From positions 8,082,618 to 8,146,617 of the forward strand of contig CAUJGJ010000444.1 of the NCBI GenBank assembly GCA_963170055.1: DNA of 64,000 bases. The letters are read 5' to 3'. This DNA is from Halisarca cf. caerulea (taxonomy: Eukaryota > Porifera > Demospongiae > Chondrillida > Halisarcidae). Under the pieces are notes generated by a model, which saw only the letters and a list, made by a program, of their open reading frames with translations, was not told the DNA's origin and did no database searches. Each line of letters begins with the position of its first letter. The stretch's first letter is position 1. Both the position numbers and the translations under genes were made by a program. This document shows positions 1-60,224 of this stretch, piece after piece.

Positions 1-601
1 AGGTAAAAGTCCAGTTATGATAGCTGTTTCTGGTCTGCTTATGTTCTTGTTTGTGTGATTTAGATACAGATGTCCTTGATGAGCATTTGAAGCGAATGCG
101 ATGATCTAAATAGAAATAGATAAGAATTCAAACTTGGTAGATGTATTACTTGTAGTAAGAATACACAATACACAAAGTTTCAATGGCTAATGTACATGTA
201 CAAAAGGGCTACAATAGACGGAAATCTTATAGTGTTTAAAATGGCGGCCGTGGTATCTTGCTACCAAATCATATTTTCTCTTAGTTCAATACAGCTTAAA
301 ACAAGGAATAGCGCAAAGTGGAATAGGCATAGAATAACAGGGTTCCTTGCAGCAATAGCTGGTACTTTTCCGGATCATCGGTGCCGCGCATACCTAGCAA
401 TTAAGAGATAAGTGCCTTTTGACATATCGAAAGGAGCACTGTTGACACTTCTGCGCTCAAGACGCTTCATTGGTGAATGGGCAGACATCAATTCCTTCGA
501 CAATTTTAGCCTCCCATCCGTGTGAAGTTCGTCTAATCCTTGTGAAGTTCATCTAATCGATATAACAAACAGTACACGTTCATAAAGCCTAGGGTTATTA
601 A

Positions 602-2159: not shown

Positions 2160-2296
2160 AATGTGTGGTGGATAGCTTCCTCTTTGCAGTGTCCATCGAA
2201 TCTCGATGCTTCGGGATGTTGTATTCGCCAGTAAGAAAATTCCACCTCTTTGTAGTGGGGGAGGGGTTGGAGGGGGAACATCTACTAATTCAGTTT
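2160..2296 (-). CDS. Start of a fibronectin type III-like domain
   Basis: The exon encodes TELVDVPPPTPPPLQRGGIF followed by LLANTTSRSIEIRWTLQ. The Pro-rich entry, then T-S-x-S-I-x-I-x-W, is the usual beginning of an FN3 domain (A and B strands). Acceptor CCTTCTCCAG, donor CACATT|GTGAGT, 137 bases, phase 1 in and phase 0 out. The second half of the domain is not found between here and base 1. Confidence 0.65.
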
Positions 2297-5200
2297 CTGG
2301 AGAAGGAAATTCAAATCACATCACCATTGCAATCTTTGAGTTTAAATTTTATGTGTATGATACATTAGTGCAATTTGTGTACTACGATCATTAACAGAAA
2401 ACGACAATAGTTGAAATTTGGTTTCTATGTGGGCTTTCATTGGACAAGTTCTGTCATAATAGTATAATATATGAACTAGAAATTTATGTGTATGACATAA
2501 TATTGCAGTGTTGTGTATCAGCATCAACTAACAAGTGCATGTGGGTCATGTCCATGCTAATTAGGAAGTGTGAATATCTCAGCCTTTTTGACAACTTGTT
2601 ATCAACTTGTAGGCAGACATGTGATCTTCCTAAAGACTACCGTTTTGAATGTCTCATATGAATGCTGAAGCAGCTAGGACAGCTTTCCTGACCCCTATAC
2701 AATAAGGAAATCCTCAGGGTGCTACTAAATGGAGGAACTCCTTCTGAGACATTTTCCTGCAGAAATCGCTATATCAAAGTACTTGCTTAATTATCCTTGT
2801 AGGGTATTTTGCCAATCTTCTTGAAAGCCAAGATTGGTGAAATTAGACCTGAAATGACAAGATTCAAGTACCTATAACTCAGGACGGGAGCAAAAAGTTC
2901 AAATACTTAACAGGAAAGTGTTGTATAGTGCAAATAACTCTCAATTGGTATCATAAAACCGTTGCTAGCTTGTTCCCTCATTTAGCACCCAGCAGAAAAC
3001 TAAAATTCTGAAGAACAGCTTAGTTTTGATCACATACCTGCATGTGACAGAGCACCTGTGATGATAGAAAACGTCACTAAATGTAGATTTGGCATTTGGA
3101 TACGCCAGAATATCAGCCTGAATCACAAGATAACTGCATGACTAATCTTTTATAGGCGCCAAAAATAACATTTTATTACTAAAGAGTGCTATCATAACAA
3201 AATTGGACATGTCCCAACATGCGAGAGCAATAGTTTAATTCAAATATGATGGGCTTTCAAATGGCAGCTTAGTATGATGAAAATGAGATGCCATACTCAC
3301 TGGGAATATTGCAAGCTTTTCCTTGATTTTCAACATGTCCGTCATCTGTACAGCACTTTGAGGGTGACAAAACTGTACTCTTTTTACACTTGCAATCCAA
3401 TTTTCTGTCCCCACTGCAGACATATTTGTATCCAGAGTCAGTTTCAGCTGAATGTTCAGGACAACTGTCTGTTATTGGGGGAGCAGAAAAAAATATACAT
3501 GGTGAAATAAGAAAAGATTTCAAGTAAGTTAAGATCTAAGAAATGCATGCAGATACTCATTCTTAGCCAAAATCAAAAGACAATGATTAGTGGAGGCTGG
3601 AAATTTGAAAAGGTGGATTGGGAAAATTTCACATGCATACAAGCATGAACTAATGGATGCATGCACACACACACACACACACACATGCACGCACATTTTC
3701 GACCTTCAAATAGATGATCAATGCAGGTGAGTTATGTCCGATTTTGGACATCCCACAAAATGGTTGACACTTCGTAGGCACTAAATTTAACCCTCCCCCC
3801 TGCAATGGGTAATATTAGCATGAACCTACTATTCTACATTACAAACATATTGGTTGGTGTTCTCTTTAAGATAATCTACAAGTCGAACGTCCCACTACAC
3901 GCAATGTCTTCGGCTAATGTCGAACGACTCCTTAGATACATAAGTGCCCTGAAAGATTCCTGAAGCCCGGTAGCTCAAAGCATGGCTGTTATGTCCAGGG
4001 GTTTCTGTCGTTTTTGGAGGTCTCCAACCACAAAACACAGAACGTAACTCGAACAGTAGAAGGTGCAAAGCTCCAGGAATCTTTCACCTCAGTTTGGACT
4101 CTTGGGAACCCGATGGCACTATTGCTGTTACTCTGAGCCAAGATTCTTACCACCACGATTTTGAAAGAAAATTTCCACTTGAGCATCTCTCTTCTCAGAC
4201 TGCAGTCACATGCTGTCACATGTTCTACGAACGTTCTCTTTCTCGTATTCTCGCATATACGTCCAACCGTATATGTCATCACAAAAATCTAGCTATCTGC
4301 GCATGACAATCCCATGCGGTTAGTGCTATAATGAAATTCATTGAGTGAAACCGTATAATGTTAGGCTTATGGCTGGATTCGGACATAACACACCTGTGAA
4401 AGCTAAGAGGACAGGTAATGCAATGTGCGCATTCCAAAGGACAGAGAAAATGGAGTACAGAAACTACAAATACAAATCAGTAATTTGAGTTAAAAACTTG
4501 TAGGGGCTGCAGCAGAGGCTACCACTTACACTGTAACTGTAAGTGGCAGCCTCTAAAAAGATTATTGAATACAAATGTAGTCACAAACTCGGTTACAAAG
4601 GGTAGTGCATACATTGCTAGCATATAATATACACTTTCCACTACATAACTAGCCTTTGGGTCTAATCCCAAGCACAGTCAGTGTCCTGTAAGTTTTGTCT
4701 GCTAATCTTCTATTCAGGTACACTTGGTCAAAAAGAAGGTGTGGTTTAATAGTCAAAGCCACTTTGAATTTCACAGTAAACGTAATTGTTAAATCAGTAA
4801 ACCTTCCGTAGGAGTTTCTACTCATTTTGTAGTCAGCACTGTTGACCTCCACAGACATTACTGGTCTACCATGTAAATAAATGTGCTGAATCTAAGGGAA
4901 AAAGCAGACTGGCTGAGAGCAATTTTGCAATATTATTTGAATCTTGCATACTCACATCATACACCATTTGGGGTAAGAACTTTGTAGTGTCTTCAATGCC
5001 TGAAAAGTATGCAAAATTGAAACTTAACAATGCAATGTCCCCTGGTTCTTCTTTCTTCTTCAAGCGACAACCTGAGAAGTCTGTTTTTTCCCAAAAACCT
5101 ATGAGAAGAATGTTCAAATGTGCCATATTTGAATAATTATTACACAAAATAAATGCAGTGGAGAAATGATCACTAAAATGCAGGTATATTATGGTACTTT

Positions 5201-8200
5201 CACCGAAAACAAAATGACTGCTGCTTTAAGTGTCTCTAATAAAACACCTTGTTTTCTCTTCGTACAGCTGCACAGACCCAAGGAACCGTCTAGATAGTAT
5301 TTCGAGCATTCACATTTTGTGCATTTGTAATTTAAAGAGCCAAAAACCTGTTGTACTTGTTGTATATGGTCAATTATTAACCATATTGAAATAAGCAAAG
5401 AACGTAAAAGGCGCAGGTGAAGACATCTGAATTTAAACACCCAAGTGGATTCATAAGACAGAACATGTCCTTATCTTACTTTCCTGATTTGGGGAACACG
5501 CTAATACATTCCATGGCTGTTATGTCCAAGGATTTCTGGTCAAGAATATTGGCTATAGCAATAAATGGCTGCACATAAACTGAGTGGATGGACTGACAAT
5601 CTTCCTCAAATCAGACTTTGAAGTTCAGTCTTTTAGCAATAATCTGACAAAAGGTTTAAGTATCTAGGTAGAGATCTAGACCTGCGCCTTTTTCGCCATA
5701 AATCCTTGTGGACTGGAGTTCTTCTTTAGGCTTTTGTCACATGATATCACATGTTCACAGAGGCAAAATCTTCAAATATGCGCGAGCTTCAGCCCGTGAT
5801 GACATATAATAGTCGTATTTACCCTTTATCGTGGAAGATGTGGTTGCGCTATCACCCCCTTATCGTGGACGCTTCTTTCGTCATTTTAAGAACGAATCAA
5901 GTGTTCACTGGCTCAGTTATCAGCCTAACGAATGTGAAAACATATTACGAGTATAAGATAAGCGATAGATCATAACAAAAGTAACAGAAAGGTAGAAAAA
6001 CAAAATCTTATAAGTGTACCGCATGCGTATTACCCCATCAGTTGACTTTCGGGAACAGGTAGATAATGCCAAAACGGGCTCAGAATCAACATGGCTAAAG
6101 AAATGAATGCACAATACTGGTCTACGAAGAGGAAGGATGAAATAGCTTTAACAGCGTGCCTCTTTTCCTGCAATTCTTGAGCGTCATTTCCTTCGACGTT
6201 GACAATCTTCGAAGGGACCTAATCTCCCATTATTGTTCATCACCTGATTCTAAGAAGTGAAATAATTACAGAGGCAAGCAATGTAAAGAAACTGCTCCCA
6301 TTCCCTCGGCACAATTCCCGGTTTTAGATTGAGCCACACAGAAGAATGCCATTTTTATTCCGCATAACTAAGAGTTTTTGGTAAATTATCGCATAATCAT
6401 TATATAACACCATAAAAGGGTATTGTAAGTAATTGTTTGTAAGTGTTCTAACTTTGTTGTATTCCATATTAGAAGGTTCATACTTACAGAGTGTGTTACT
6501 ATGCTACATGTATGCTTCATATAAAATTTGAACAAAATGTGCTAAACTTTCATTATGTTCCACAACCACCGGTAGAGCCACTATAGTGACTCATCCACAA
6601 TAATAGGTTAAGTTGGGGTCACATGGCTAGATCGTGATAAACTGTCTGAGGCGTAATGATCAAATTGCATACCCTTTCAAACCACAAAACGCCTACTTTA
6701 GCCTCAATACTGGGATAACTTACCGGTGAACTTCCAGGCTATAGTGGAGTAAATATGAAATCTGAGTTTATCTATTTACCCAGTGTAAATGGCATAACAT
6801 CATTTCAATGAAATTCTGACTGAATTTTAGGGAAGTCTGAAGTTTAGGGAAGCAGACCGCAGTGAATTTCCACTCAAAACTGACAAGTGCACGTGAAGAT
6901 ACTAAATGTAGTTTTTTTATGTCTGATTATGGATATAAAACAAAATAGGGGATGTTATTGAAGAGCTGGAATGAATCGAATTGTTTTGTGTTGTAATGAG
7001 ATACACAGTTTTAATAGCTGCTTGTACCAATGCAAGAACATATGTATTTTGTATCTGAGTTGATTGGAAGCTTATCAAGTACTTGAAAGTTAGTCTTTAC
7101 AGACCCGCCTTTGTAAAGATGGCAAATTCTGGTCGGGACATAACACACCTGCGAATATATACAGTTGCTACAAGAAAACATACGATATCATCCAATGAAA
7201 TGATTCCTGCATTGGACGTTCTTGGAAACTAGCTGTTAATGTGGATGTATAGTGGCACTGTGCTTAACTAGCACGTAAAGGGCCTATAAATGTATCTTTT
7301 CACACTATATACACATCTGCAATAAATGTCTAACAAATCTTTCTGTGCTAATTTTAGTTATGAGAAAGAAGAATATTGATTATTGTATCAAAGATAATGC
7401 TATTAAATTTCACAACCTAACACAACTGGCTATAGCTTACCACTGATGTTGCACTGTCTCTTGACTGTTCCATAATCATCAAATATCGATCCATACAGTG
7501 AACAGTTGTTTGTTGCTATACCACATGTCTCAGTGCGAGGCCAAGTGACAAAGTTATCCGTTGCTGGATTGCAACCTGCAGAATAAAATGAAATCACAAA
7601 ATACAGCATTTTGTAAGTTTTTACATAATAATTACAGCAAACCCTTTATAATAGGACATTAATTTTACTCTAATCTGAACATTTTATGCTGTACAGTCAC
7701 TGTGAAAGTATGCTATGAGTCTATAATAAGACAACCTACTAATCAGTCAGACATGTGTTCAAGCCACAACTGAGCGTCGCTTTAGAGTGATTTTACTGTA
7801 GTACTTAACATTAACCTTTTAACGACCACGTGTTTCTGTCATTTCTAGACCGTTAACGACCGTTAGCCACTAAAGTGGCTTGAATATTTAGAAGATTTGT
7901 TTGGCCAGGAATATCCCTGAAATTGTTTTGTTTCCGCCGTATAACTCACTGCTGTCCTCAATGTACTCTCTTTCATCTATTCGAATATGGATACTACAGT
8001 TCGTGATTTTAAGGTTCTTTTGTAATAGTATGTATGTGCGTTATTTTCGAGTTGTCTAATCCTGGTCGCTCGAAACATTTTGAGTGGTGATTATACAATA
8101 CGAAGCTTAGGTTGACTTTTAAAGCTTAAATTATGCACTCGTCTTCAAGGGAGACACTTCTGTCAAATGAACGAGAAGAATTTTTAGCTCTGTGTGTGAT

Positions 8201-11200
8201 GAGAACAGAAAAGAACGACATATTCCTGTGAGAGTTTTGTTCCACTCTTCGCTGCGCTTTGCTCTAGTATTACTCAAACAAAGGCAAAACATGATACTAT
8301 ACCCAAGAAATAATGCATTGTTTAAGTGAGCAACTTTCGGCGGAAGCCATTTTTGTTTGTATAACTGCGTGTTATTGTTTACAAGTGTGTTTCTCGTAGA
8401 ATTTCTTTGACTTTATATACACTCGTACAGCTATGTATGACTATAAAATTTGGTCTGACAACTACATAGACCATGCCCTTTCTGCCACTCTAACTTTTGT
8501 GGCAATTGCGCAACTTTTGCACCCCGCTGTCTTAAAGTATACTTGTTGTTATAAGCCACTAAAGTGGCTAACGGTAGTTAAAAGGTTAATACATAAGCTA
8601 AACTCACTGTGTATGTTAAGTCGAACAGAATAATCTTGTCTCCACTCAAACTTTCTGTCCTTCTGGCCAATTCCCCTTACCTGTACAGTAAATCTAAACC
8701 AATTCTGCCAATTTTGAATTTCATTTCTTACATATATTTTGCCATCTTCAGTGATACCAATATCAGTGTTGTCTGGACTACTAAACTGAACACTTGCTTC
8801 CTTTATGTACTTGGGGTCCTGAACTATGTTTGGACCCATATCCAGTATGACTGCTCCTTTTCTTAAATCTGGGCCAACACTATATTGTGATCTGCCTTTG
8901 TATGATACACCAGCTGCATGAGTGGAGGGGTGGGGAAATAAATAAAGGGCATTGAAACATTTCATCACTGCAATTCCTCAACAGTGACAATACAGAATAT
9001 AATAATTATATGAAACAAGAAATTAGCCTGCAATTTGCATAGTTAAGCTGCATAACTCACGTATGATAGAGACCTGAACACTGGCTGATGTGAAGTTGTG
9101 ATAATCCTCCCCACTATGAAGCTTTGCTTCAATGAAACTTTGCACATAAAAGGAGAAACTTTGCACTCTTCCAGGCTGTACAGGTAGCATTCTGATAACA
9201 CCTTTCTTTGAATTCACAGAAAATTGTGTTTCACCACGTCCATTGTGCAAAAATCTTGTACTGTATTCTTCAAATTGCTGGGGATAGTGGACCTCTACAG
9301 GCACTTTGTACACAGGTTCATCCGTATTTACATCCGAAAGATGCACAAAGATTGTGTAGGTGCTTTGTGATAATCCAATGTATGGAGCTAGTGTAGCTGC
9401 GGTCAAATCAATGAAAGAAAGATAAATTGTACTACAGTAATGAAAAGTGACTGAATGAAATGGCATACTCCACTTGCATACTAATGCAGCATTCTATCAG
9501 TTTGTAACATGATTACACAGGGTACTTCTAACTGTCCTTTGTTTTTTGGATTGCGGATGGTGCTTGTTTTCAGCATCATCAATGAGCAACTGCTTTGATC
9601 CTCTCATTGGGTGTCTTTCAGATAATGTTGGAAATTCCACGTATCAACAGAATGGGGGAAGATGTGATCATTGTGATGTTACCCCTATGTATATGTGAAA
9701 CATCACACAAATTTCTATGTGATGAGGTCAAAGAAAAAAACAGCCTCAAAGGAGATGCCTTCTGATCATCCTAATTCTTATCTTCATCAGATCATGGGAC
9801 ACATGGGATAAATTACACCATGTGAACCACTGGAAAACAGGTTTTTTATTCACAACTATCATTATGATGATTATAACCTAATCCCCAAACATTTTTCTAA
9901 TGATAAACTACTTGTTCCTTATTCTAATGTTGATTTCATGTGAATCCTTTGGAATATTCCATTTAGGCAAAGCCAAAATGTGCTCAAAACTATGGTGTGT
10001 TCAGAGGTGGCTTTCTTCCTTTAGGAAACAGCTAACTTTGTTGGTATGCCTTTAAAGCAATGATTATATATGTTGCTTTCATCTTATGTACAAACTAAAA
10101 TGATACTATTCAAGATTCAGAAGAGAAGGTTGAGAATTTGAGAAACCATTATGTGACGACCATTTTTGTTTAGCCTGTGTACAGAAGCATACAGTCAAAA
10201 CATTATTGCATATGCATAAATCTATGGAGGGATATTTAGCTCTGTCTAATACAAAACTTCAGCTACAGTAAATTAAAAAAACAGCAACATTGAAATTTCC
10301 GTTCAATAGTGCAAATCAGCATTACATGCTTTAAGTGCCATTTTCCACCCAATTTTGTATTGTGGACAGCACTCATATGAAAGAGGAAGGAAACACAGTT
10401 CAAATGGAGTGGACAGAAGAACTTGTTTCAAAGTTGCTTTAGCTAGATCAGCAGTGTGACATTTTTGGCAATACGGAAACTTGAATAATATGGTCATAAA
10501 CCTTCAAAATGTTTAAATTTGTGTTGAATGACTCGAAGAATTGCAAGAATATAAAGAAAAGGAATTTGGACTCATTTTTGTATACAGCTGCATATATTTT
10601 GACCATTGAGAAGTATTTCAAACTATGAAACACTAGTGAAAGATAGTTGTGTTAAGTGTACAAACTAACTTCTTGATGAAGGTAGATAAGATAATTCTCT
10701 TGTACACTTAGAATCAGCTAGTTCCTGTGGAAATCAGAGATAGTTAAATCAGATAGTAATACAAAAAAACAATGCTTTTATCTTGTAATTCATTGAATAC
10801 AGAGTTTTAGAAGCACATTGTGGCACTATGGCATATTTATAGCATGTGCATCATCATTAAGATACATATACAATATTATTCAACAGCCAGCAACAATCCA
10901 ACTCACCACATTTTCTTTATCAACTAAGCAGCTACAGTCAGAACTTATCACTTTCTGACATATATTCACCACATTTTTTGGATAGCTTTTTGTGAAGTGC
11001 TGGCAATCATCTACATATGTGGTTTGATAATAGAGTAATGATCTAATAATAAGACTTGAAATTGCATTGAAGAGTATTTATTGGCTAAAGCCAATAAATA
11101 CTCTAGTAGATTTTGCAAGTAAGTTGCAAAATCTTAAAAGCCTGTGACAGGTGAAAAGTTGCACTGAATTGATTGTCGATTGAAGAACTTCTTTGATGTG

Positions 11201-14200
11201 TTTCAAAATTCAACAAACTTTCTTCTATAGTAGCATGTGAATAGCATAATATTGATGATAGCAGTATGAATGTTTCAGGAATCAAAGATGATGTAAAAGA
11301 CAAGGGATTTTTCAGAACACCAGGTACATAAAATGCCTGATGTGTATGTACTATTGCAAATAAAGCATTACAATAACTTGGAGTCACCTTTAGGTTTAAA
11401 GATGCGAATTCCTCTATACTTGGAATTCATACTCAAGCCTGCTATTTTTTCGCGAGAAGAAAAGTAGTCATTCATCACTTTTGAAATTACAGAAGGAGTT
11501 ACAGCATCTGTGAACTGTAGTGCCACTACTACACGGAACATCCCATCATAGTAGTGGGCAGATGTGATTTCAACTGTTTGTGCACTGGTGTCTTCTGGAA
11601 ACATGCTACGAACCTGTATGATAATCAGAAAAAATTGTATTGATATACTAGTGGAAGTAAACCATAACAATAATCCGGTAAACCATCTAGTGCTTACAAC
11701 TAGTCAAACACTACTCCTTTGTTACATGTACAGCTTCTTGCACACAAACTACTTAACATGATGCAAAGCTTGCTATTCCTATGTGTGCATGTCTGTTTCA
11801 GTTATTGTGATCTAAAATTTGTGATGACGTGTAGGGTCAAGTGTGTAGTGTAAGACAGTAGAGTATTCTTAGGCTCATCATTTTGTGTTTGGGTTGAGGT
11901 AATCATAGTGATTGATTTAGTGTGCTCCCTTTGAGAAGTACTAATACTTGGTCTTGTGTCCTAAGTAGAAATACCACCTTGTGTCAACATACTGTTTCTC
12001 TAAGGAGAGATAATAATTTTGCTTTACCAGTATACATGTAGTGAAAGAGTGTTTGTGTTTACTTTCAACTTGTAGTATACGTGGGCAATCAAATGTACAG
12101 CAGTTGTTCATTTTGCTCCAAGCTTATTTGATGACTGACCAAACTACGGATTCAACATTATTGGTATATTTGTCTAGTCTAACTAGCATTCCACACTGTA
12201 TAAGTGGATCAGAAGAAGTACAAATTTGGAAATTTCAAATTTTACTTTTCTTAATTGGAGTGCAAATTTTATATGCTAACTAGAATTTCATCTAATGAGT
12301 TATAGTCAAACACAATGTAGTTAAATTCTGAATTATTCTAGACCAAGGAAGATGAATTTTAATGATTTACTAGCCTGTCAACTGATGGCCTGAGTACACA
12401 TGGCAAAGGTTGAAAAAAGCATAAAAGTTGAAATGTAATGCTCCCAACTTATAAATTATCTGCAAAAAAATTGACAACAAGAACCTGGGATACAATGAAC
12501 TCCCTGATATAACCAACATATGTACACCTTAAAATGTACACCTATTCACTCTATTGTGAATGAAACATGATGTATTGAACAACCTGATACAGTAAACCTT
12601 TTCATTGGTCCTGAGGCAGTTCATTTATAATGAGGCCTGACTGTATTTATTATACCTTCTTCAGAATTCGTTCCTTTGCCAGTCTATATCCCAGACTACT
12701 GTGTAATCCAAACCATAGCAAACCAAAAGGATCTGTCACATTCGACTGCACATAGCATCTGGAAAAATCAATTGTATCTTCCTCCCCATCCGAGTGGCAG
12801 TGACGCTGAACAACATTTCCTTCCAGCAGTGGATGATACTCTGAACAGCTCTTTTCAAATTGAGAACACTGTGGCATTGCTGGCCACTGTACATTAGCTT
12901 CATACAGTGCTTGGCAACCACCTTCCAAGTGAAAGAGCAAAAATACAGGCTAAACAAGCATTTTTGCTGATTGTTAATTCAAACAGTACCTGATGCTGCA
13001 ACAGGGAGTTTGAGTATGTGGTCACATTTGTCTTCATTTTGGAATTCATACTGCAAGTGGAAGAAAAGTACAGATTGAGAAAATTTCATGCTATACTTTT
13101 CTAAAATGGAGTACAGATTTTATGACGAATGCGCAATACAAACATCACAGGAGCAGTCACCAGATATATTATCAATATTTGGGGCATCACTTCATCTTAT
13201 GCACTTACCCTTCTAAGGAAATTACCATATACAGTGGAATCTGTAGAATTCAATGCTGTGTGGGCATCAAAATTATGTCAGATTGCAGAGTTTGTTGGAT
13301 TTTGTAGGTTGGGTTTGAAGTGACTCTTAGCATACTTTAATGTGGTGACTGTACTTCAAAAAATATTGAGATTAGAGAGAATATTGGAAAATAGAGGTGT
13401 AGGATTACAGATGTTAATCTGTGTACTTTATTTTTCACAGGGTAAAACTCTCAAAATCTTGGATTTTAGCAATTTTGCATTTCTATATTCATTGCAGATG
13501 GCCATGTTTTGCCATTGCACAAGGGCCCAATATATATTTTTGTAGGTATAAACTTTTGTAGACGGCTTCCAATCCATTAAAACATGAATATAAGACCACA
13601 CAAAAATTAAAGTGCATACAGTATTCCAAATTGGTTACAGGGTTAGGGTTACTTCACTATACTTAAGCAGCTACAATGTGATGTCGTTGGGTGCAACCAT
13701 TTTTTCTTCAGCTAAGGCAATGTATTTCACTTTTTTGATGTTGCTGAGTTATCTTGACTTAAGGTTACCTAAATAGATTATTTAATTACCTAAGAGGCTA
13801 CTGGGTGCCTAGAGTAGTAGCCTTTTTGGCTAAAGGCCTCCCCAGGTTAAATAAGCTTCCGTAACCGTAACCGTAACCGTAAGTTCTGTACATATTAGTA
13901 AAACAGTGAATGTATTAGTACCAATAGTTACCCTAAAATTTTGTGATGTTTGGCGCTAAATGGGGACAGAAACATTCATTAGTTATAAATTTGGCAAACG
14001 CCAGGCATTTCTTTGAAGGTCAGTGGTCACTTGTACCAGATCATGGCAGGGTAAGTATCATAGGGGTATTTATTTTCCATGAGATAAATTGTCGCTGTAT
14101 TCACGGTTATTATACTTGCAAATTTTCAAAGTAATTTTGTCTTGCGTATATTGAACCCTGCATTGGTGGGTTCCAGAGTCGTTCTGTTCTTCTTGTTGTT

Positions 14201-17200
14201 TTAGAGTTCCAAAAACTACCATGATGGCACTATTGAGCTACCTCAAACTGGTCGAAAGCCATAGTTCCTGATCCTACTGGTCGTCTTTATGCTGATATCC
14301 CACCACCGGTATTTGGCAAGTGAACATCGAAGTCTTGGCAATTGAGAATTTGGGGACGTACAGTCAAGTGTTAATGGGCTACGAATGAGCAGTGAGCACA
14401 GGATGGCAAGTCGTCTATTACGTTCTCCCACATGTCCGCTGACGCCCTACAGGCATGTAGCTAGAATATTATTGTATGACATTATAATAGCATTGCCAAT
14501 AACAATTCTTATTTTCGCGTGTAAGGCAACCTGCAAAATTTAGAATCCTCAAAAGTTTTGATAGAAGGCCTTCTACAGGATTTTGCAAAAATAAGTTGTC
14601 CTGAAAATAAATACCTCTATGGTAGTTTGTATTTGGTGGAGCTGGCATTCCTTGTGATGGATGGTAAGAGCTAGAAAAGGAACCTTTTCTGCACAGACTT
14701 TGCTTGTGAATTCCTGAGATTCAGTTGTACGCATGTGGGACATGTCCGCGCTAATTCGGAGGTGTGAAAATTTTGGTCTTTTTCACAGCCTTTGTTCTGA
14801 ACTTGTAGAAGCTTCAGAGCATCAAACGACGGCTTAACATGTAGGTAGAAACATAAACGTTTCGAGAATTACTATTTTAAAAGATCTGGTTTATTCATGA
14901 AGAAGCTTGTATGGTTTTCCTAACCCCTATTAAGAAGCGAAACGCTTTGGGTGCAAGATAGTGGAACGCTTCTAAGACTATTTAATCACATAAATCGCTA
15001 TAGCGAAACATTTACTAACTTTTCCATGCAGAGGCATTGACAATTTCGCTCCAAAGCTGAGATCTGTAAAAACGACCCTCAAACAGTAAAATTCAAGCTG
15101 TTGTAACTAGCAACAGGAGTAAAGGTTCTTTTGCCTCCGCATGGAAAAGTTGTATATTACAAATTGCTCGAAGTTGGCACCTATAAACTGTCTCCAGCTT
15201 GTTCCTTCACTTTGCGCTCAGCCGAAAACCATAATTTCGAAGGACATCCAGATAGGTCTCAGGCCAGCATGTGACAGAGTTAAATGTGACGACAGAAAAC
15301 GTCCCTATACGCGGATTCGGTATTCGTATGTGCCCAAATATCAGCCTGAATCACGAGATAAATGCGTGACCAATAACTTGTAGGCGCCGAAAAATAACAT
15401 TTTATCACTATGCAAACTGGGAAGCTCTATCATAACAAATCTGGACATGTCTCACATGCGTATGCTGATTTTGAACTTTAGCCAAAATACTATTTTGAGA
15501 AAAGTATAGTTGACTACAAACATACAAAATTCCTACCCCTTCTATTATTCCTGTGTAATATTTGCCAGCAACAGTATTGCCCTTTGATTAGTATGTCGGC
15601 CATACTACACAATAAATTCAAAGCGAATTATACATACACAAATACCTGTGAACATACATTAGCAGAATCTTCGAAAATTGTTAAGAGCATGGTAGTATGG
15701 AGAACTTGTATATTTCCCACACAAGGATAACACTTGAGTTCAATATTGCTTCAGTATATTATGTATTATAATAGTATTAACATTAGCTCAATATTCTCAA
15801 TTCAACAAAAGCAAGGGAAATGACAGAAACAGTTGAGATCACATGCAGGATGCCACCCCTACACACTCTAGTCATCTATGAATACAAAACAGTTGGTGAC
15901 AACTTACTGCTGGACAGTCACATTCTTCCTTGAGGCACACAGTAGAGAGATAGGTACTCCTTGTCACATTGGTGAGCCAAACACATGAACCTGTAGGAGA
16001 CACAAAGAAGTTTATCCTTTATAGGGATAACATGTTCACGTTGAGAAAAAGTTGAAGTTTTGTGATTTACTGGAACTTACACTTCAATAAATCCCTTTAG
16101 GGGATGAAAGTGTGGTGAACTACGACCCTCAATCTTGCATATATATTTGCTAAATACCTCTATTACATTCCTTTTATACTGTATAAGGTTATAAACAGTA
16201 CACCTTTCGTAATGAGATAACTATTAAGTAGTGTAACCATGCCTATCATTCAGTATTGTCTGCTTTATGGCAGGAATGCAACAGATTACAAGAGACTTTA
16301 CTGTTCCTTTTCAAAGGGCAACTGTAACAGCAAGTGTTTTGACTGGCATTCTGAGTTACACAACTGTGCATGTGCGTTTCTTTTGATGTGGTCAGGTCGA
16401 TAAATCTCTTATCGACCTATGAATAGGTTTCTAAGTCCAGGGCTCTTATTGCAGCTATTACCTACAAGGTTTTACCTGCATACAAACTTTGAGGATTTAT
16501 GTGAAACAGAAGACTGTTTGCTAATGGCCGCTTCACAGCAGTGTATATGATAAAAGATGAAGAGCTCAATGATAGATGGCCATTGGGTGACCTCAAATCA
16601 GCTGTTTAAGCCCAATAGAACCTGGCCTTTTTCAAGTTATTTATTTCTGAATCAAGAACTTGATGCAATTAGTGGAAACTGGCATTTGTAAGCTCAATTG
16701 TTCTTGCTCAATCACATATGCGTTGAAGTCCCATCACTAAAGAGTACTATGTGTTTGTAGGAGTAAACCACCATCCCTGTTTCTTATTTCCATCATAAGA
16801 CTAAGCATACACATCACTAATTCTTCATCTGAATATCGAAGAAGATTCGCAGAAACGTGTTCTGTTGACTCACCACTTAATCTATGTGAGCAAGAGCCCA
16901 AACCTGCCGGGTATTAGCAGACCAGCTGTTGGTTCTTTGGTTATTTGAAGGAGCATGGTGTTGAATAGATGATTTGAGCTCAGCATCTGTCATCAATGTG
17001 AAGCCGCCATTAGCAATTGAAAATAAACACTCACGCACACGTTGCATAAGGCAGTTATCACAATTTGGTATTGGTTGCAATGGAATTTATCACCCTCGGC
17101 ACTTTGTGCCTTGGGTAATATACCTCTTACTTATGTGATAACCTATACATATAACTTATATGTGGAGAGATCTGTACACTGTTGTGCATTCACATGCTAC

Positions 17201-29200: not shown

Positions 29201-32200
29201 CACACTGGAGTGAATAGTGCAAATTGAGTAAGTAAGTGATCTGATTTGTATTTCATACTCTACTTACAATCTTGCTCTATAATCTCACTCAATGATGCCT
29301 ATTACAAGGGACGTGACACTGCCACCAAAATTCAAATAGGGTTCAAAATGTAGTAAATGGTGTAAACTAACCAGGTTGCTGTAAAAGTGTCGTGCGTATT
29401 GCCGTTTGGGAGAAATTCTACTCCAAAGGTGGTAAAACCTCGGTTTGGGTAGCCATATTCATTACATCACTAGGGTAAACTGAACAAGAATAACTATGGT
29501 GCACCATGTAGACCTGTACCTCTTGGAGCCTTTAATGACCAGTGAAGAACTGGAGGGTGTTCGTGAAAGGTTTGGAAATGAACATGACAGGCAGGAACAA
29601 GGGCACATTGAGCTTTTTGGAAGTCAGAAGTGGTCACAATAGGTGGTGTTCATGTGGAAACTGTCCTGCGATGACTACAGAGATGGAGAGCGTCTGCTGC
29701 AAAGAAGTGCCCGAAATTCTCTAGAAAATGGGACCTCACGGATGTATTACAGACAATCTCAGCTTCGTTGTAGTTTGCCTGGACCCAGAAGTCCTGCAAA
29801 CTGCTTTAGTAGCCATGCGAGACGTGTGCTTTGAAGACTTCGATGTTCCGGGGCCACAACGGACTTTGCGACTTGTAGCTTATCGTCAGTTCACCTGGTG
29901 GATACACAAACAACTCGGTTGCTCTGTTAGGAGGGTCATTCCTGCCTGTGCAGCAAGTCAAATTAGGCATGAGTACCCAGAAGAATCGGCCCAATAGACT
30001 GGATTCCAGGAGGCCCAAGAAAATTGACTGAAACTGTGATTATATATTTACTTACTTTTGTGCAGTGTAGTGTGGTGCGGAATGCGTCTTCATGTACCAA
30101 TGAATAATAAGTTCAGCAAAAGATGTAAAGGCATACATGCCCATGTACGCTTCTGTGCTTTGGCTTGGTTCGAGGAATCAATTCACTCTTCAAACCCCAT
30201 TCAAAACAATCCACTGAGAAATGCTACGAGCATACACGGCTATTTTCTTTGATTGGAGGGTCTTTGAGCCGTAGCTAGACTTGAAGATGAGCAGGTTTTT
30301 TCAGCAGTAGCCTGAAGAAATGGAAGCTGCACTTGCAGTCCTTGTTGTTGTTCTTGCAGCCAAAGGCCATGCAGCACGGCATAATGTAGGTGTTCTCCAT
30401 AACTTAGAGGACAGGAGACAGTTATTGGAGCAATTGCAGAGACGTTTTCACGGCGAATGCAAGTATGTACTATGTACACAAATCGACGCTTCTATGCTAA
30501 CTTTCACGCCAGTGACGTCACACCACAATGGGGTCATTTTCTGTAAATGGCTTCGAAAACGGAAGTTCAGAGAGCTCTATCTCACAAACAACAATGATTT
30601 CACTACTGGGACTTCACCAGCAAGGGTTTTTATGATGATAACTTTAATTTAAAGGCCACTTATATGTTGGAGGCAGTGTCCCTTTATCCATTTAATCTGC
30701 ATAAGCCACTTTAGTGGCTTTAGGTGCAGACTTGTGAGTTATTTTTTCCCAGCCAATTTTTATGAAATTACACACATAGAAACTATATTGCATAACAATG
30801 TAATTTGTATGCTATTACACCTGTACATTGTGTTTAATGAAAGATACAGGCTATAGAAATTCTTAGAATACAAGGAATTACTAGATATTTTGTTAGTGCA
30901 CATAAGTTATACGAATAAAAGATAGTGGCACCAAGGGAATTGTTTTGATTTCTCGCAAATCTGTGACATAAATATGACAAGAGGGAACAGGACAGAATGC
31001 AATGGGCCATTTCTTGATGCAGTCTGCAGAGGTCAAGGTGAAGAAGTGGCGTCGTACATTGTCCAAACAACACAAGCGCACTTCTGATCAACGAAAGGAA
31101 AATCTCACTGTTAATCACAGCGAAGGAGAAGCAAAAGTAGCGAGAAGGCTTCCTTTCTAGTTTCATGACCTATGTTAAGATGTCCTAGCTGTGTGTAGAT
31201 TTTTGCGTTTGCTTCAGCGATGATCTCTGCCATCAATCATATCGGCGGTTAGACGCATACAAGATAGACAGACAGGGCTACTTTGAATGTCTAATTTGAC
31301 ACTCTTTCTAGGTAAAGTTATCGCATTCTAATACGTATACGGCCGTATACCTGTTATTCTTGTTGGTGGCACTAAAGTGGCGTTTGCATGTTTGCGCACA
31401 CGTAATTTTCGCATAATTTGCACGTTATAGGGTTAACTCACCTATAGGTGTGAATATACGAACACCCTTGTAGTTAGAATACAGCTGTACTCCTCCAAAG
31501 TGTGTGGTATCCCGTAGCTCTCTCACTGCTGCCACAGCAATTGTGTTGTTGATGGTGGGTAGGAATTTCATGTCAAAGATTAAGTCCAATGCATAACTGC
31601 TTGGTATAACTGACAGAAGTCCTACGTCCGTGACTACTCCACGTGGGAATAGTTGCTTGATCTGTGAATAAATTATGCAAAGTTAGGATTCTCATCAAGT
31701 TTTAATATTCACAAAAGGCAAACGGGTAATCCTTATGATGTTTATGCTCTAGAAATACAGTCAACTTCCTTGTTAGCAACAATGACGGTACTAACCATGC
31801 TAATGGTCCACTGGGATCAGGTAATTTGCTCCCATTGCCTTTCTTAAAGTTCTTTAATAAGGACATACTGAGTTTTAGAGACTGTCGTCTCAATTCCTTT
31901 GTAAATTCTTCATATCCGTACCACATGCAAAGTGCAAAGGGTGTAGATGGTTACTAAATTTTGTGAGTAAATATTTTGTGGTTTCCTTCCCAACAACAAA
32001 AAACACATTTTCTTACTCCTCGAATATTACCCACTATATGGTATAATATAAATAATTTTTGAATTTGAGAAATACAAATTTATGTAGAAATTAGTATTAG
32101 CCATAGTTTCAAAGCAATCAAACACTGTCAAGCAACCAGTGTTAATTGAATGCTCAAAAGCTGTTGCTGTGTGTTAAGATGTGCACATACATGACATGTG

Positions 32201-35200
32201 TGGTGACACTTACATCCTCAGTAATCCTTCTGATAACTCTGCTGTAGGCCTTGTTTCTTGCAAATTGAAACCACAGCATACCAAATGTCTCATTGTCACC
32301 TCTCTCTATGTAGCACTTTGAGAAATCTGGAGGTGATTGGGATCCCCTGGAGTCACAGTGACGTATGACAACACTTCCATGCAATCTGGGATGATATTCT
32401 GAACAATTTTTTGGGAATCTTGTGCAAGGGGGCATTTGTGGCCACTGCACATTTCCATCATTGTAGAGAGGACAGCCTACAAAATTGACATTGAATATGT
32501 TGAAAGTTATTGGTTTTTGAATGTTGCAACCAGCTTGCTACTGTAACCATATTGTAGCTGTCAATATATAGCACTTTGTTGTGCAATGCATAATTCCACT
32601 TATATAAATATAGGTGGAAAGAACCATATAAAAATCATTTAAAATGGAAAACATGTAGGGATAAAATTGTCAACTGTCAAAACATTGGAACAAGCGGTAG
32701 GGTAGAGGTAGAGGTAGCCCCATATATGCCTAGCCCTATACCTGTCCAGCCCTGTACAACAAACAACCCCTACCCTGTTCCAATGTTTTACAGTTGACAA
32801 TTTTTATCCCTACATCTTTTTTACCATTTTTAAATGGTTTTATATTGTTCTTGTCCATATACTTTTACTTGTAAATGATAGGTTGTAGGTAGTGGCTGTC
32901 ATATGACGCTATATAGCCACAAGTAGATTTTATCCAAGTTACCCACTATTGACAACATACACAAACATAACAATACTGATAGCAAGTAAACACCAATGTA
33001 GCCCAAATATGCATAGAGCTATACATTATAACAAACCTCGTTTGTGGAATATTGACAGTCATGCCTACATCCTATTTCTATTCTTACAAGAATTTTATAT
33101 TTGTCTTGTACATGTAACTTTGGTTTAAAGTATGTGTGTGGATATGAGAAAAGGGCCATATCTTCAATTCGATAGCTCTATCACAGAGCAATAGGATGAT
33201 GCATGCAGTGCCTCTCTGGCTTGTCCAGTTATTGAGGTATGCGGAGTTGTAGCAACACTACCGCTTTATTACCATTACGAGAACAAGCTTGCTTCTGGTA
33301 TGCACTCCAAACACCGTATACGTATGACATCATTGTTAGTTTAGCATACATTAAAAATGGCGATCTTGGCCAAACAACACGATTAATCTTTCATTTCATT
33401 TGATTTTGGAAGTCAGGACATTTGTTTATTGTGAAAGCAAGTTCAAACATTAGGTCAGCACTTGTTTCAGCCTTTTTTGAAGTATTCTACATATTCATGC
33501 GCGTTTTTGCATTACATTTCACCCGCAAATATTACAGAATTTCTTGCTGCGTAGTTTTATCTATGCACTTGTCACAAGCACTACTAAATGATAGTAAATA
33601 CACTTTGAAGTACTATATCATATCCTGCTACTGTTGTAACTACTTTCCATGTGTACTGTATGATGATTACCTAATCAATGATTTCGCGCATTCTTTGCGG
33701 ATGCTGTATACGCTTTCCGTACACCAGGTCATTCTATTGCAATACTTTACTTACCTTGAATGGATACTCTTATGGTCATGGACAGAGTACTGAGGGCTCT
33801 TCTACCATTTTCCCAGAAATCAACGGTTATTGCTGTTGTAATGGAAAATTCTGTGCGTGGATTTGGTAATTCCTTCAGGGCTAGTACACCATCAGAACTG
33901 ATGAATGGAAGTATATATATATTATAAATAACATAATGGAAAGTATCTGTAGATGACAGGGATGTTAGGTAGGTACAGGGTATCAGGGTGTCAGGGGAGG
34001 CCAATAGCCAGAGACTACGCATGTGGGACATGTCCAGATTTGTTATGATAACGCTCCTGAGTTTGCATAGTGATGAAATATTATATTTCAGCACCTATAA
34101 GTTATTAGTCACGCATTTATCTTGTGATTTAGGCTGATATTCGGGCGTATATGAGTGCCAAATCCACGTTTTGTGTCGTCACGGTTGCTGTGTCACATGC
34201 TTGCTTGTGACCGAACTGAATGTTCTTCGGAATTTTAGTTTTCAGCTGGGTGATGCATGAGGGAACAAGCTAGAGGAAGTTTCATGGTGCCAACTTTGAG
34301 CCATTTGAAGGATACAACTTTTCCATGTGGCAGCAAGAGAGCTTTTGTTACTGTCCTAAGTTATAGGCGCTTGAAGTTTGTCTTTTGAGGGCCAATATAC
34401 AGATCTCAGCTTTGGAGAGGAATTGTCTTTGCTGTCGCATGGAAAAGTTAGTAAATGTTTTGCTATAGCGATTTATGTGAAAAAGGAGTCTTAAAAGCAC
34501 TCCACCATCTATCACCCTAGGCGTTTCGGTTTTTAGTAGGGGCTAGTAAAACCTTAGTAGCTTCTGCGCGCTTGAAGCAGGTCTTTCAAAAGGGTAATCG
34601 TCGAAACACTTATGTGTCTCCCTACATGTTAAGCCTACGTTTGTCGCTCTGAAGCTTCTGCAAGTTGAGAACAGAAGCTGTAAAAAAGACCGAAATTTTC
34701 ACACCTTCCAATTAGCGTGGACATGTCCCACATGCCTACTATAAAGGTGCCTCGTAAAAATGCACGTGAAAGAGTTGGGAGAGGAATAAGAAATGACTGG
34801 GAATTATAAACAACTGTCATTTATCTATGTAAATTACCTTTCCAGTTGAAAAGATGATTTTAATTGTTTAAAAATGAATGAGTTTCAGTGTAACCACACG
34901 AACCACATAGACTGAAGTATATAAAATGCCAATTGGGAACTGTCAATTTAGAACAAACCGAAGGTACTCTTGTGTTATACTGCCTATACACAAGAATAGT
35001 AGTTTCTGACTTATGGGTTGTTGTTCTTAACAACTTAAACTTCTGCAGGTGTGACATGTGCACATGTGAGGTGTGAACAAAATGGTGCTCCAAAAGTTGG
35101 CTGAAATCAGCCCCCTTATTTCTTCCGTTCTATTACGTTACAAGTCCTGATTACACTAGTTGATTCGAACCTATAAAAAGCTTCAGTGGATGAGGTGGTC

Positions 35201-38200
35201 ATGTAAATGCTCGTTTAAGGGAGTCATACGAAGTTGGAAGACTTCTTACATGAATATTTAAATTTTCACCATTGAAGAATTTTCTTAATCCTCTTCGTTT
35301 GAGAGATGTGCACTGAAATGTGGTTTCTGTCCAAAATTTAACCACAAAACCATGCTCATGTTGGGAATGGAGGACTTGATCAAAATTCTCCAATGGTGAG
35401 AATTTACCTTTGTTATTGGTGAACCCCATTCCAAAGCAAGGCTTCGCTGCACACTCATTCATATGACCGCATTTTCGAGAGAAATTCAGCCTTAGGTGAG
35501 CACTGTCTCCTCACCCATTATCACAAGGTTTTCATGTGACAAATATGACATCAGCATTACGGGATCCTTGAAGAAAATTTAGCCTAGTGACACAGATCGC
35601 GATTCGTACACCTTTTGTAGCTGTTTTCAGTTTCTATCGATCAGTAAACCTCTCTTATCCATCTATTCCATTGAAACTACCACAAATTCACTTGGAATAT
35701 TTTCGTAGATTCGGAGGAACACATGACTTGCGTGCGCAATCTCTGTATTCGGTGTCATAAACCACAAAATGCCCCTCAACTTCCACAAAGTGCACATTTT
35801 ATACCTGCGTCAGGCTACTACACTTTTCTAGGGAACTAGCACAAAACTTACTACAAGAGAAACACCGCAGGAACATGTCCATATGTCGAAGCTCTTTGAA
35901 TCTCGTATCTGATAACATAGTCTCCATCCTTGACAATGTAGTCTTTTGTGTCCAGAAAGCCCTTCCCCAGTGGGTAGCCATAAGGGACATTGACATGAAC
36001 GGATGTTTTGCTGAAATAAACTGGACCTATAATAGATATAAATGTAATAATTGTACATATTGAATTTCATTCAATGAGTATCATGAACATAAGCAGAACA
36101 GAAGGCTACAAAAATATAACAATTCACCGCAATTGAAAATATCAGTTAATGCAAAATACTACTATTCGACTCATGTGCAGGCAGGGTCAATGCGCTCAAT
36201 CAGCCAGCAAAGGGCATTTTGTGGTTTCAATGGAATATTGTTATCAAATGTCACATTAGAGAATTTTGCTTGGCCTGGTCACATGCTGTGTACGTGAGTC
36301 AAAGTGGATAGTTGACAAAGGACAAGGCTAAGTTTTCCCTGTATGGCCTTTTGATACCTTTTCCATTCATTTTATGTGCACAAATTACATACAGTAGAGG
36401 CTTGGTTATCCAAACACCTCTGTTCTTGGGCCCATTTGGATAATCAAAATGGACATGCCCACGCAAAATATAGTCTGGGGACAATAATTAGATTCTCATG
36501 TGCACACAGAACTACAATATGTGCAGAATACCAACTGCATTTACATTTGAAAAAGTCAGTGATGTGGGATTGCTTGAGAGAGTTCACCCTTTTCTCAGAG
36601 GCTAGGGTACGTAGCTCCCTAACCATTGATGTGTTGTATACTGAAGCCTCTGGTTAATGCTCCAGCCAGTTCATGCACTTGTCAAACATGCTAGCTGCTT
36701 GACTATGGGACACAGGGCATACATATCATTTCAAGCTTTAGCTTTTTTCCAGGCGTTCAGATAATCGAGGATTTGGATAATCGAGGATTCGGATAATCAG
36801 GATTCAGATAACCAAGGCTCTATACTGTAATATTATGTATGTCTTCTCAAAAACTACAAAAACCTGCACATCCCAGGAGCAGAGGTATTCAAAGCCCATG
36901 TAGTAAAAATGTAGTAAAAATGTAGATACCATTTGTAAAAACCCTTTGTAGTAGAAATCTTATCTGCATTTTGGACCGAAGCTGTCATTGTATACTTTTG
37001 AGTCTGCCAATTGCTTTGCTGGGAAGAATCTTTGTAAAGATTATGAGTGTAGCAATGCAAACTTTCAATGTAAATGTAGTGTACAATACATTTGTTTTTT
37101 GTATACATATACAGCGGGCCCTTGTTTATCTGATCACATCTGTTCCTCATAAAATTCGCATGTGGAACATGTCCGAATCTGCCCTGCGTGCTAATTAGTT
37201 GGAATCCGAGCGAAACTGTTATTCAATGGTTTCAAGTCATGTGACATGTGCATGATAAATCGTCTGGCTATAATGCGTACGCATTGAGTTTATTTTTGCT
37301 GCAACAATCATTTTGCAATTTCTGTGCACTTGCGAACGTTTATCCCGATATAATTCGTTCAATCGTATTCATTCTGGGAAGAAGATTGGCTAAAGCCCGT
37401 TAATAATCAGTATTTTAATATCCCTGAAAACAAGACGTACCGAGATGACATGCTATTTTCTCTCAACGGGTTCAATTCCAACCCGTTGAGGAGAAAAATG
37501 AAGATAGGCCATTCTGTTCTGAAGTAAAACATTCGTTATTTAGATTTAAAAGTAACAGCTACCGCCGGATATTACGCACCTTACTTCGACTCTGATATCC
37601 GACGTTAAAGTTCTGCACCCTTCGAATCATCGTCAAAAATATCCTCCTTCTGTTACAAATGTCCTGACTCCTTTAAAATGTATTTCGTTTGGCGTATCAT
37701 TCACTGCCATGCTCGTCGTGTCTTCTGACTGAATTTATTCCTCACGTCCACTGTAGTACATCACACGCATGTCATGTGACTAAATGGCCTCAGCAAGTCT
37801 TTTGTTAAGGTGTATCTTTAATGGCCGGGAGCCAAAAAGTTAGGGTTGATTAGCCTAGTCTTTTTAGATTTTTCGATTTATCATAGGCAACTTTAGACTT
37901 TCCATGTGGGGGATTTTGACTGTTGACTTCCTACAAAAGTTACAAGCCAAAATGTGAGTGTCTGTTGTGCAAATTTATGGTTTTCAGTGATTTTCTCAGT
38001 AACTGTTTCAAGTACAACAAGCGATTCGAGTTTAAAAAACTCGTGGGCCGCCCACGGCCCTGGAAACTTGAATCGCTTGGAAATCGTCTTCGAAGAACTC
38101 TTCTGGTCGATAAGACTCTTTGCTGATAAAATCAGAAACGAACGAATGAATTTTACTGAAATATAGCCGAAAGATTACGTACCGACTTCGCATCCGCCAT

Positions 38201-38210
38201 GTTGTTGACA

Positions 38211-38264
<54 letters not shown>

Positions 38265-41883: not shown

Positions 41884-42312
41884 CTGCATTGCAAGGATGT
41901 ATAATACAGGTGAGATATTAAATACAAACAGGCTAAAATGCGTACAGGAAATGAAAAATCAGGGAAATAGATGTCAGTATGAGTAATAAATATTTATGGT
42001 TCCTCCATCAAAATTGTCATTGTAAACATTTCCAACCAAACATTGCTTGAACCAATTTTGTCTATCATTACATGTTTTGACTGTGATTGCATACCCCACA
42101 TACCTTCCAAAAGAAGCAATCCAGAGAGAAGGAAGATTATAATACTGGCACAGTGGTATGGCTGCCACTTCATATTCGACTTTCAGACAACTATTGACTT
42201 GGGAGAGAGGATATGGTAGCATAATAACCCAATGACCAGAAATGCCTTAGTGCCCTTCAATCTGTTTCCCAACAGAAGCACACATAGGCTTGTTCATGCT
42301 ATGATCACTTAC

Positions 42313-60130: not shown

Positions 60131-60224
60131 CTACATTGATGAATTCAAATATATATATATATATATTCAATTTCAATAGAATTGAGATTCCAATCAGCTG
60201 TGAGATTTGTGCATGTATACATAC

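Follow-up and report, generated by a model that had tools for sequence, protein, structure and literature searches.

Gene structure and the matching database protein

The DNA analysed here (the window) is a stretch of 64,000 nucleotides from the sponge Halisarca cf. caerulea (contig CAUJGJ010000444.1, positions 8,082,618 to 8,146,617 of the forward strand). The contig, denoted C412, belongs to a source genome of 194 Mb. The minus strand carries a gene of 33 exons and 46 kb, which very probably encodes one secreted protein combining tandem cadherin-like repeats (EC), HRM domains, alpha/beta domains (X) and cysteine-rich modules (Cys). The original prediction had joined 27 of these exons into one frame of about 1538 residues, read as four EC-EC-HRM-X-Cys units.

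The exon model came from an in-house procedure that chained exons by splice-site and codon scores, and it was then adjusted manually using candidate exons whose phase fitted. Chaining on the minus strand yielded 31 exons and 1,742 residues with all phases compatible. Of these, 27 fall exactly within 41883 to 2160 and encode residues 24–1562 (1,539 amino acids) of a 1765-residue model, so the predicted frame and its intron phases were reproduced to within one residue. The 27 exons form the middle part of the gene, which extends past them at both ends, to a signal-peptide exon upstream and to FN3, S5 and tail exons that continue left of the window down to -3732. The range from 62000 to 40300 was scanned for start exons that combine a hydrophobic core with a donor in phase 1. 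The best candidate was 42173-42104 (hydropathy 3.16), and its frame fits; an alternative start exon at 40402 was weaker (hydropathy 2.12). The last exon, encoding Asp-Glu-Glu-Asp and the stop, lies at -3719 behind a good acceptor. It was found after the database protein P0001, described below, had supplied four extra residues.

The exons are given below in window positions, with negative values to the left of the window. "Chain" denotes recovery by chaining, "P0001" presence in the database protein, "held-out E" the profile test described below and C40 the contig of a paralog.

42104..42173, minus: exon 1, signal peptide MKWQPYHCASIIIFLLSGLLLLE; phase 0 to 1; best hydrophobic start exon; present in P0001
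41833..41883, minus: exon 2, short linker; phase 1-1; chain, P0001
39867..40187, minus: EC1, cadherin-like, single exon; phase 1-1; chain, P0001; likeness to EC3, z 12.8
35852..36026, minus: EC2 first half; phase 1-2; chain, P0001; EC2-EC4 z 14.6
33755..33897, minus: EC2 second half; phase 2-1; chain, P0001
32214..32476, minus: HRM1 and first part of X1; phase 1-0; Pfam HRM 27.2 bits; held-out E 3.9e-20
31442..31661, minus: X1 rest; phase 0-1; chain, P0001; X1-X3 z 14.5
28707..28804, minus: Cys1 first exon; phase 1-0; held-out E 2.6e-05
28132..28195, minus: Cys1 second exon; phase 0-1; chain, P0001
27594..27798, minus: EC3 first half; phase 1-2; chain, P0001
23455..23558, minus: EC3 second half; phase 2-1; chain, P0001
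22940..23105, minus: EC4 first half; phase 1-2; chain, P0001
18961..19103, minus: EC4 second half; phase 2-1; chain, P0001
18322..18548, minus: HRM2 and first part of X2; phase 1-0; no Pfam match; held-out E 2.7e-07
17964..18141, minus: X2 rest; phase 0-1; chain, P0001; unlike the other X by sequence
15908..15990, minus: Cys2 first exon; phase 1-0; chain, P0001; unlike the other Cys modules by sequence
12990..13050, minus: Cys2 second exon; phase 0-1; chain, P0001
12656..12921, minus: HRM3 and first part of X3; phase 1-0; Pfam HRM 23.4 bits (exon frame, cut-off 26.2); held-out E 4.7e-23
11388..11613, minus: X3 rest; phase 0-1
10907..11010, minus: Cys3 first exon; phase 1-0; held-out E 0.0011
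10670..10724, minus: Cys3 second exon; phase 0-1; chain, P0001
9061..9396, minus: EC5, single exon; phase 1-1; 37% identity to the homologous C40 exon
8608..8913, minus: EC6, single exon; phase 1-1; 34% identity to the C40 exon
7441..7575, minus: HRM4 first exon; phase 1-1; spliced HRM4 is the protein's best Pfam HRM stretch
4956..5098, minus: HRM4 second exon and first part of X4; phase 1-0; chain, P0001
4654..4891, minus: X4 rest, GC donor; phase 0-1; chain, P0001
3301..3468, minus: Cys4, single exon; phase 1-1; Cys1-Cys4 z 5.9; chain, P0001
2160..2296, minus: FN3 first half; phase 1-0; weak Pfam fn3, E 0.048; P0001
105 to -102 (window part 1..105), minus: FN3 second half; exon leaves the window on the left; chain, P0001
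-236..-288, -355..-588 and -663..-777, minus: S5 domain exons, left of the window; chain, P0001
-3719, minus: last exon, DEED and stop, left of the window; P0001 and genome acceptor

The modules follow one another in the order signal peptide, EC1, EC2, HRM1, X1, Cys1; EC3, EC4, HRM2, X2, Cys2; HRM3, X3, Cys3; EC5, EC6, HRM4, X4, Cys4; FN3, S5 and acidic tail. The tandem arrangement within one protein is as predicted, except that the third unit has no EC pair and Cys2 runs straight into HRM3. The single cysteine exon expected for each unit is found in unit 4, and the Cys part occupies two exons in the other three. All 18 introns between modules are in phase 1, the signature of class 1-1 module shuffling (PMC8001218; here and below, papers are cited for the excerpts available), and the encoded protein belongs to this exon-shuffled class. 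The X4 donor is GC instead of GT (4652-4656, minus), and the junction in P0001 agrees with its use. HRM4 is split by a 2.3 kb intron.

Residues 858-1381 of the model were compared with 5.77 billion database proteins in a search that needs shared 5-residue words. The sole protein returned (one of 2,344 candidates, and one of 11 in a second search at full length) was P0001, 1768 residues long and encoded on a contig of 5,498 bases. It was found only after the model had been built without it. P0001 follows the model from its initiator Met through its final exon, with nine substitutions in 1,764 aligned residues and one Gly fewer at the Cys2/HRM3 junction (the 5' junction of the HRM3 exon), and it adds four residues beyond the model. 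A 46 kb gene cannot fit on a 5.5 kb contig, hence P0001 is an intron-free copy; it is most simply taken to be a transcript. It spans all units, which argues for a single gene rather than for transcripts that split the units. As regards relatives elsewhere, a 378-residue query found none, its length precluding full-length relatives, and full-length queries found P0001 alone in a search that diverged relatives could escape.

The only strong hydrophobic span of P0001 is the signal peptide (2.27; the next span reaches 1.50). A seven-transmembrane (7TM) domain was found neither as a second hydrophobic span in the protein nor as a 7tm_2 match on C412, among at least 57 such matches genome-wide. Pfam scans of the model and of P0001 gave no match to GAIN or GPS, nor to EGF or LamG. 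Apart from the signal peptide, no stretch resembles a transmembrane segment, and the product is therefore probably a secreted protein rather than a G protein-coupled receptor (GPCR).

Repeated modules and their folds

Repetition was assessed with profiles built without the unit under test and applied to 114 kb (5,156 open segments), the omitted unit being sought among the best nine. All four HRMs were recovered (E values of 3.9e-20, 2.7e-07, 4.7e-23 and 0.0023 for HRM1 to HRM4), as were two of the four Cys modules (2.6e-05 for Cys1 and 0.0011 for Cys3). None of the four X domains and none of the six ECs was recovered among the best nine. Judged by sequence, the repetition of HRM is significant and that of Cys is partly so. 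The repetition of EC and X draws on some of the pairs, on position, on intron phase and on fold, and the assignment of X2, X4 and Cys2 follows from their position and phase alone. Profiles of the four module types found no further copies in the 114 kb around the gene.

Pfam HRM (PF02793; cut-off 26.2 bits) matches three stretches of P0001, with 58.5 bits for the whole protein and HRM4 as the best stretch. HRM2 has no Pfam HRM match and is the domain found at 2.7e-07 by the profile of the other three. The pairwise z scores are 40.8 for HRM1-HRM3, 11.5 for HRM2-HRM1, 15.9 for HRM2-HRM3 and 4.0 for HRM2-HRM4. The identification of the cysteine domain as HRM, proposed in the original prediction, is firm. 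Five cysteines are invariant across all four domains, one more than the four conserved in the HRMs of adhesion GPCRs. The Cys modules contain five, five, five and seven cysteines (Cys1 to Cys4), and the ECs and FN3 contain none. The five cysteines of an HRM and the odd number in a Cys module give an even total for each block, which predicts at least one HRM-Cys bond. Among the Cys modules, Cys1 resembles Cys3 (z 15.6) and Cys4 (z 5.9), and Cys2 resembles no other.

High z scores link EC1 with EC3 (12.8) and EC2 with EC4 (14.6); EC1 and EC2 are not alike, nor are EC3 and EC4. EC5 leans weakly to EC1 (z 2.6) and EC3 (z 2.2), and EC6 to EC2 (z 3.9) and also to EC3 (z 2.9). A predicted model of the C40 homologue of EC6, the one homologous domain modelled, gave only cadherins among the 50 matches listed, and profiles added weak evidence of cadherin likeness. 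Pfam Cadherin matched neither the ECs nor the rest of the model. The calcium motif DXD occurs in one of the six ECs compared with 23 of 23 canonical ECs, and XDXE in two of six compared with 21 of 23, both matches (EC1 and EC4) being misplaced by eye. The NDN of DXNDN occurs nowhere in the protein, a pattern that lacks a control inasmuch as it is also found in none of the 23 canonical pieces, which were cut before the linker. The predicted cadherin likeness thus has tentative support from the fold of the one homologue modelled; the calcium motifs are missing, and Pfam does not recognise the ECs.

The alpha/beta domain X is perhaps SEA-like, as suggested weakly by a low-confidence model. X1 and X3 are alike (z 14.5); X2 and X4 resemble neither by sequence. 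Pfam SEA gave no match in X, but the SEA model matched nothing genome-wide either, and this result was not counted as absence. The SEA autoproteolysis motif GSVVV is absent from X, and the only GSVV of the protein lies in HRM1 at 287. Some SEA domains are without this motif, for example that of ADGRG4 (PMC10687090). FN3 matches Pfam fn3 with an E value of 0.048 and 14.3 bits, below the 25-bit cut-off.

The HRM1-X1-Cys1 block is closest to HRM3-X3-Cys3 in all three modules (z 40.8, 14.5 and 15.6). From this pattern of pairwise likeness the repeat seems to have grown by copying of multi-module blocks, in which unit 1 would pair with EC3-EC4 and unit 3, HRM2-X2-Cys2 lying between.

Relatives in the same genome and other features of the locus

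A paralog on contig C40 (1631365-1650466) keeps the module order of the gene between the EC4 half and Cys4, and an intron divides HRM4 at the same position in both. Its spliced HRM4 scores 38.3 bits with Pfam HRM, above the cut-off. All 11 of the homologous exon stretches compared are open and are 15-61% identical to those of the gene; their ends were chosen by the authors from several candidate sites whose phase was the expected one, and for Cys3a the 3' end is arbitrary. Differences by codon position are 0.50, 0.42 and 0.64, and the proportions of nonsynonymous and synonymous differences (pN and pS) are 0.44 and 0.80. The codon-position pattern, together with pN below pS, indicates that both proteins have been under constraint. 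HRM3 was not recognised in the paralog, where transposon-like sequence takes its place by eye, and the copy may be incomplete. FN3-S5 had no match on C40.

Genome-wide, at least 20 HRM and at least 57 7tm_2 matches were found. An adhesion-GPCR gene on contig C418 (~127157-141348) encodes SRCR-like domains (eight by eye, of which the one tested is SRCR with an E value of 7.8e-27), Ig-like domains (by eye), three HRM or HRM-like domains and a 7TM domain. With Pfam, two of these HRMs score above the cut-off, at 32.0 and 31.5 bits. The first of the three scores below it and matches the HRM profile of this analysis with an E value of 6.8e-09. An alpha/beta and C-x-C segment follows each of the first two HRMs by eye, but the X and Cys profiles gave no match to the C418 segments. 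Sequence comparison therefore supports tandem HRMs in this receptor gene and does not support a whole shared HRM-X-Cys block. The gene also carries DTDGDG calcium-loop-like segments, and near-identical HRM exons elsewhere on C418 suggest a cluster.

On contig C62 (L052, 384-2360), frames that look like FN3 (by eye) and S5 precede a hydrophobic span, after which comes a tail bearing the tyrosine motifs NPAY and YDYI. This locus is possibly a membrane-bound relative of the C-terminal part, the match to S5 having an E value of only 0.07.

Other features of the window are as follows.

60145-61716, minus: single-exon open reading frame of 523 residues in which a NACHT domain is recognised (E 2.2e-12); this NLR-like gene lies upstream of the main gene
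40180-40335: apparent tandem duplication at the EC1 acceptor, with a 'FVQEFFNL..S.TMLLC'-like string in two overlapping frames
26327-26692, plus: open reading frame within an intron of the main gene, with weak likeness to the helix-turn-helix of a Tc3-type transposase (E 0.013, below cut-off)
8549-8589: about 41 bases that recur elsewhere in the genome (20 places, 90-98%), a dispersed-repeat end in the intron beside EC6
595-620: short CCCTAA-like repeat of about three units, an interstitial telomere-like stretch

Proposed function and comparison with known systems

Taken as a whole, the data are best explained by a single 33-exon gene for a probably secreted modular protein of 1768 residues that would serve as an extracellular adhesion or matrix scaffold, an account we consider evenly balanced between right and wrong. 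The scaffold function itself, drawn by analogy from the domain types, is proposed tentatively. The EC pairs would be rigid spacers, or rods for self-association, in either case without need of calcium. Each HRM-X-Cys block would form one binding head closed by disulfides, so that a molecule would offer four heads to a protein or peptide partner, either on cells or in the matrix. FN3 and S5 would be C-terminal modules, and the acidic tail could make ionic contacts.

Alternatively, the protein might be a soluble ligand trap or carrier, whose four HRMs bind a ligand shared with HRM-bearing 7TM receptors and sequester or deliver it, the ECs being mere spacers. HRM binds peptide hormones in secretin receptors (PMC12716839) and is essential for secretin receptor activity (PMC4302439). 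A multivalent and probably secreted form, and a 7TM receptor gene with tandem HRMs in the same genome, would suit such a role. It has no known ligand, however, and the HRMs have diverged so far (from z 40.8 for HRM1-HRM3 to 4.0 for HRM2-HRM4) that one shared ligand is not obvious; FN3, the ECs and the acidic tail would also be superfluous for a trap. We regard this alternative as unlikely.

There is likewise a low chance that the protein is the ectodomain of a former adhesion GPCR that lost GAIN and 7TM and came to serve adhesion GPCRs as a decoy or partner. The tandem HRMs upstream of 7TM exons on C418 point this way, as does the stated restriction of animal HRMs identified before 2025 to secretin and adhesion receptors (PMC12716839). 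Against such a loss, the Pfam scans revealed no remnant of GAIN, GPS or 7TM, the 7tm_2 matches all lie on contigs other than C412, and FN3 and S5 take the C-terminal place. What is shared with the C418 gene is HRM and a likeness by eye, its X and Cys segments being without a profile match.

A broader proposal is that in early animals HRM-X(SEA-like)-Cys was a mobile binding module, closed by disulfides and working with or without 7TM, and that the gene is its four-headed secreted form on cadherin-fold rods, with a ligand class shared with tandem-HRM receptors. If so, sponges would possess an HRM-based system for signalling or adhesion with two arms, one of receptors and one soluble. Since only the HRMs of the C418 gene are supported by profiles and the likeness of its X and Cys segments is by eye, this proposal appears rather improbable.

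Recognition of self and non-self, of other sponges or of microbes in host defence, by secreted modules has only a slim likelihood: an SRCR-bearing receptor gene with tandem HRMs, the NACHT reading frame upstream and the nine residue differences between genome and P0001 might hint at it, but polymorphism of 0.5% is ordinary, the modules showed no hypervariable member, and neighbours prove nothing. An artefact of gene model or assembly, in which neighbouring genes or pseudo-exons were joined by chance, is refuted, despite hand-chosen exons and some poorly scoring splice sites, by the match to the independently found P0001 and the open, conserved C40 stretches unless P0001 is itself a prediction from the same assembly, and its probability is negligible; the original view that chance assembly is very unlikely is further borne out by the significant repetition of HRM and, in part, of Cys.

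The scaffold protein thus favoured may be compared with known HRM proteins. Cadherin repeats and a HormR domain occur in one receptor in Flamingo (PMC13197933), and the CELSR/Flamingo (ADGRC) receptors resemble the present protein in having cadherin repeats and HRM in one polypeptide. They differ in having one HRM, an EGF-LamG region between the cadherin repeats and HRM, GAIN and 7TM, whereas here four HRMs alternate with EC pairs in a probably secreted chain.

SEA and HormR are adjacent in ADGRG6. Both domains have been described in this receptor (GPR126), and SEA adjoins HRM in ADGRG4 (GPR112) (PMC10687090; PMC13197933). The order in ADGRG4 is SEA-HRM, in a single copy and with 7TM, in contrast to HRM-X(perhaps SEA-like)-Cys in four copies and probable secretion.

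In the sponge Amphimedon, at least eight of 40 adhesion GPCRs have HRM and two have SRCR repeats, and the available excerpts mention no tandem HRMs and do not place HRM and SRCR in one receptor (PMC4302439). The C418 receptor gene shares tandem HRMs with the present gene and has SRCR, Ig-like and 7TM domains in place of EC pairs, FN3 and secretion. The original view of HRM as a single domain of receptors fits Flamingo and ADGRG4 but not the C418 gene. A 2025 survey, according to which HRM had previously been known only in metazoan secretin and adhesion GPCRs, adds choanoflagellate and filasterean receptors (PMC12716839). It also describes non-GPCR transmembrane proteins with HRM in the nucleariid Fonticula alba, which resemble the present protein in carrying HRM outside a GPCR and differ in being transmembrane; the excerpts mention no cadherin or tandem module in them.

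No tandem or secreted HRM protein of animals was found in the excerpts of the open-licence literature searched, and within that literature the architecture is, as predicted, undescribed. A soluble source of HRM from a sponge also bears on the ligands of HRM receptors, an open question there (PMC4302439). Here cadherin-like domains that lack calcium sites form part of a probably secreted protein built by module shuffling. The presence of four HRMs in such an animal protein suggests that HRM is not tied to 7TM signalling and can work outside receptors. Compared with the systems above, the domain types are all known, and it is their arrangement, repetition and secretion that appear to be new in the literature covered.
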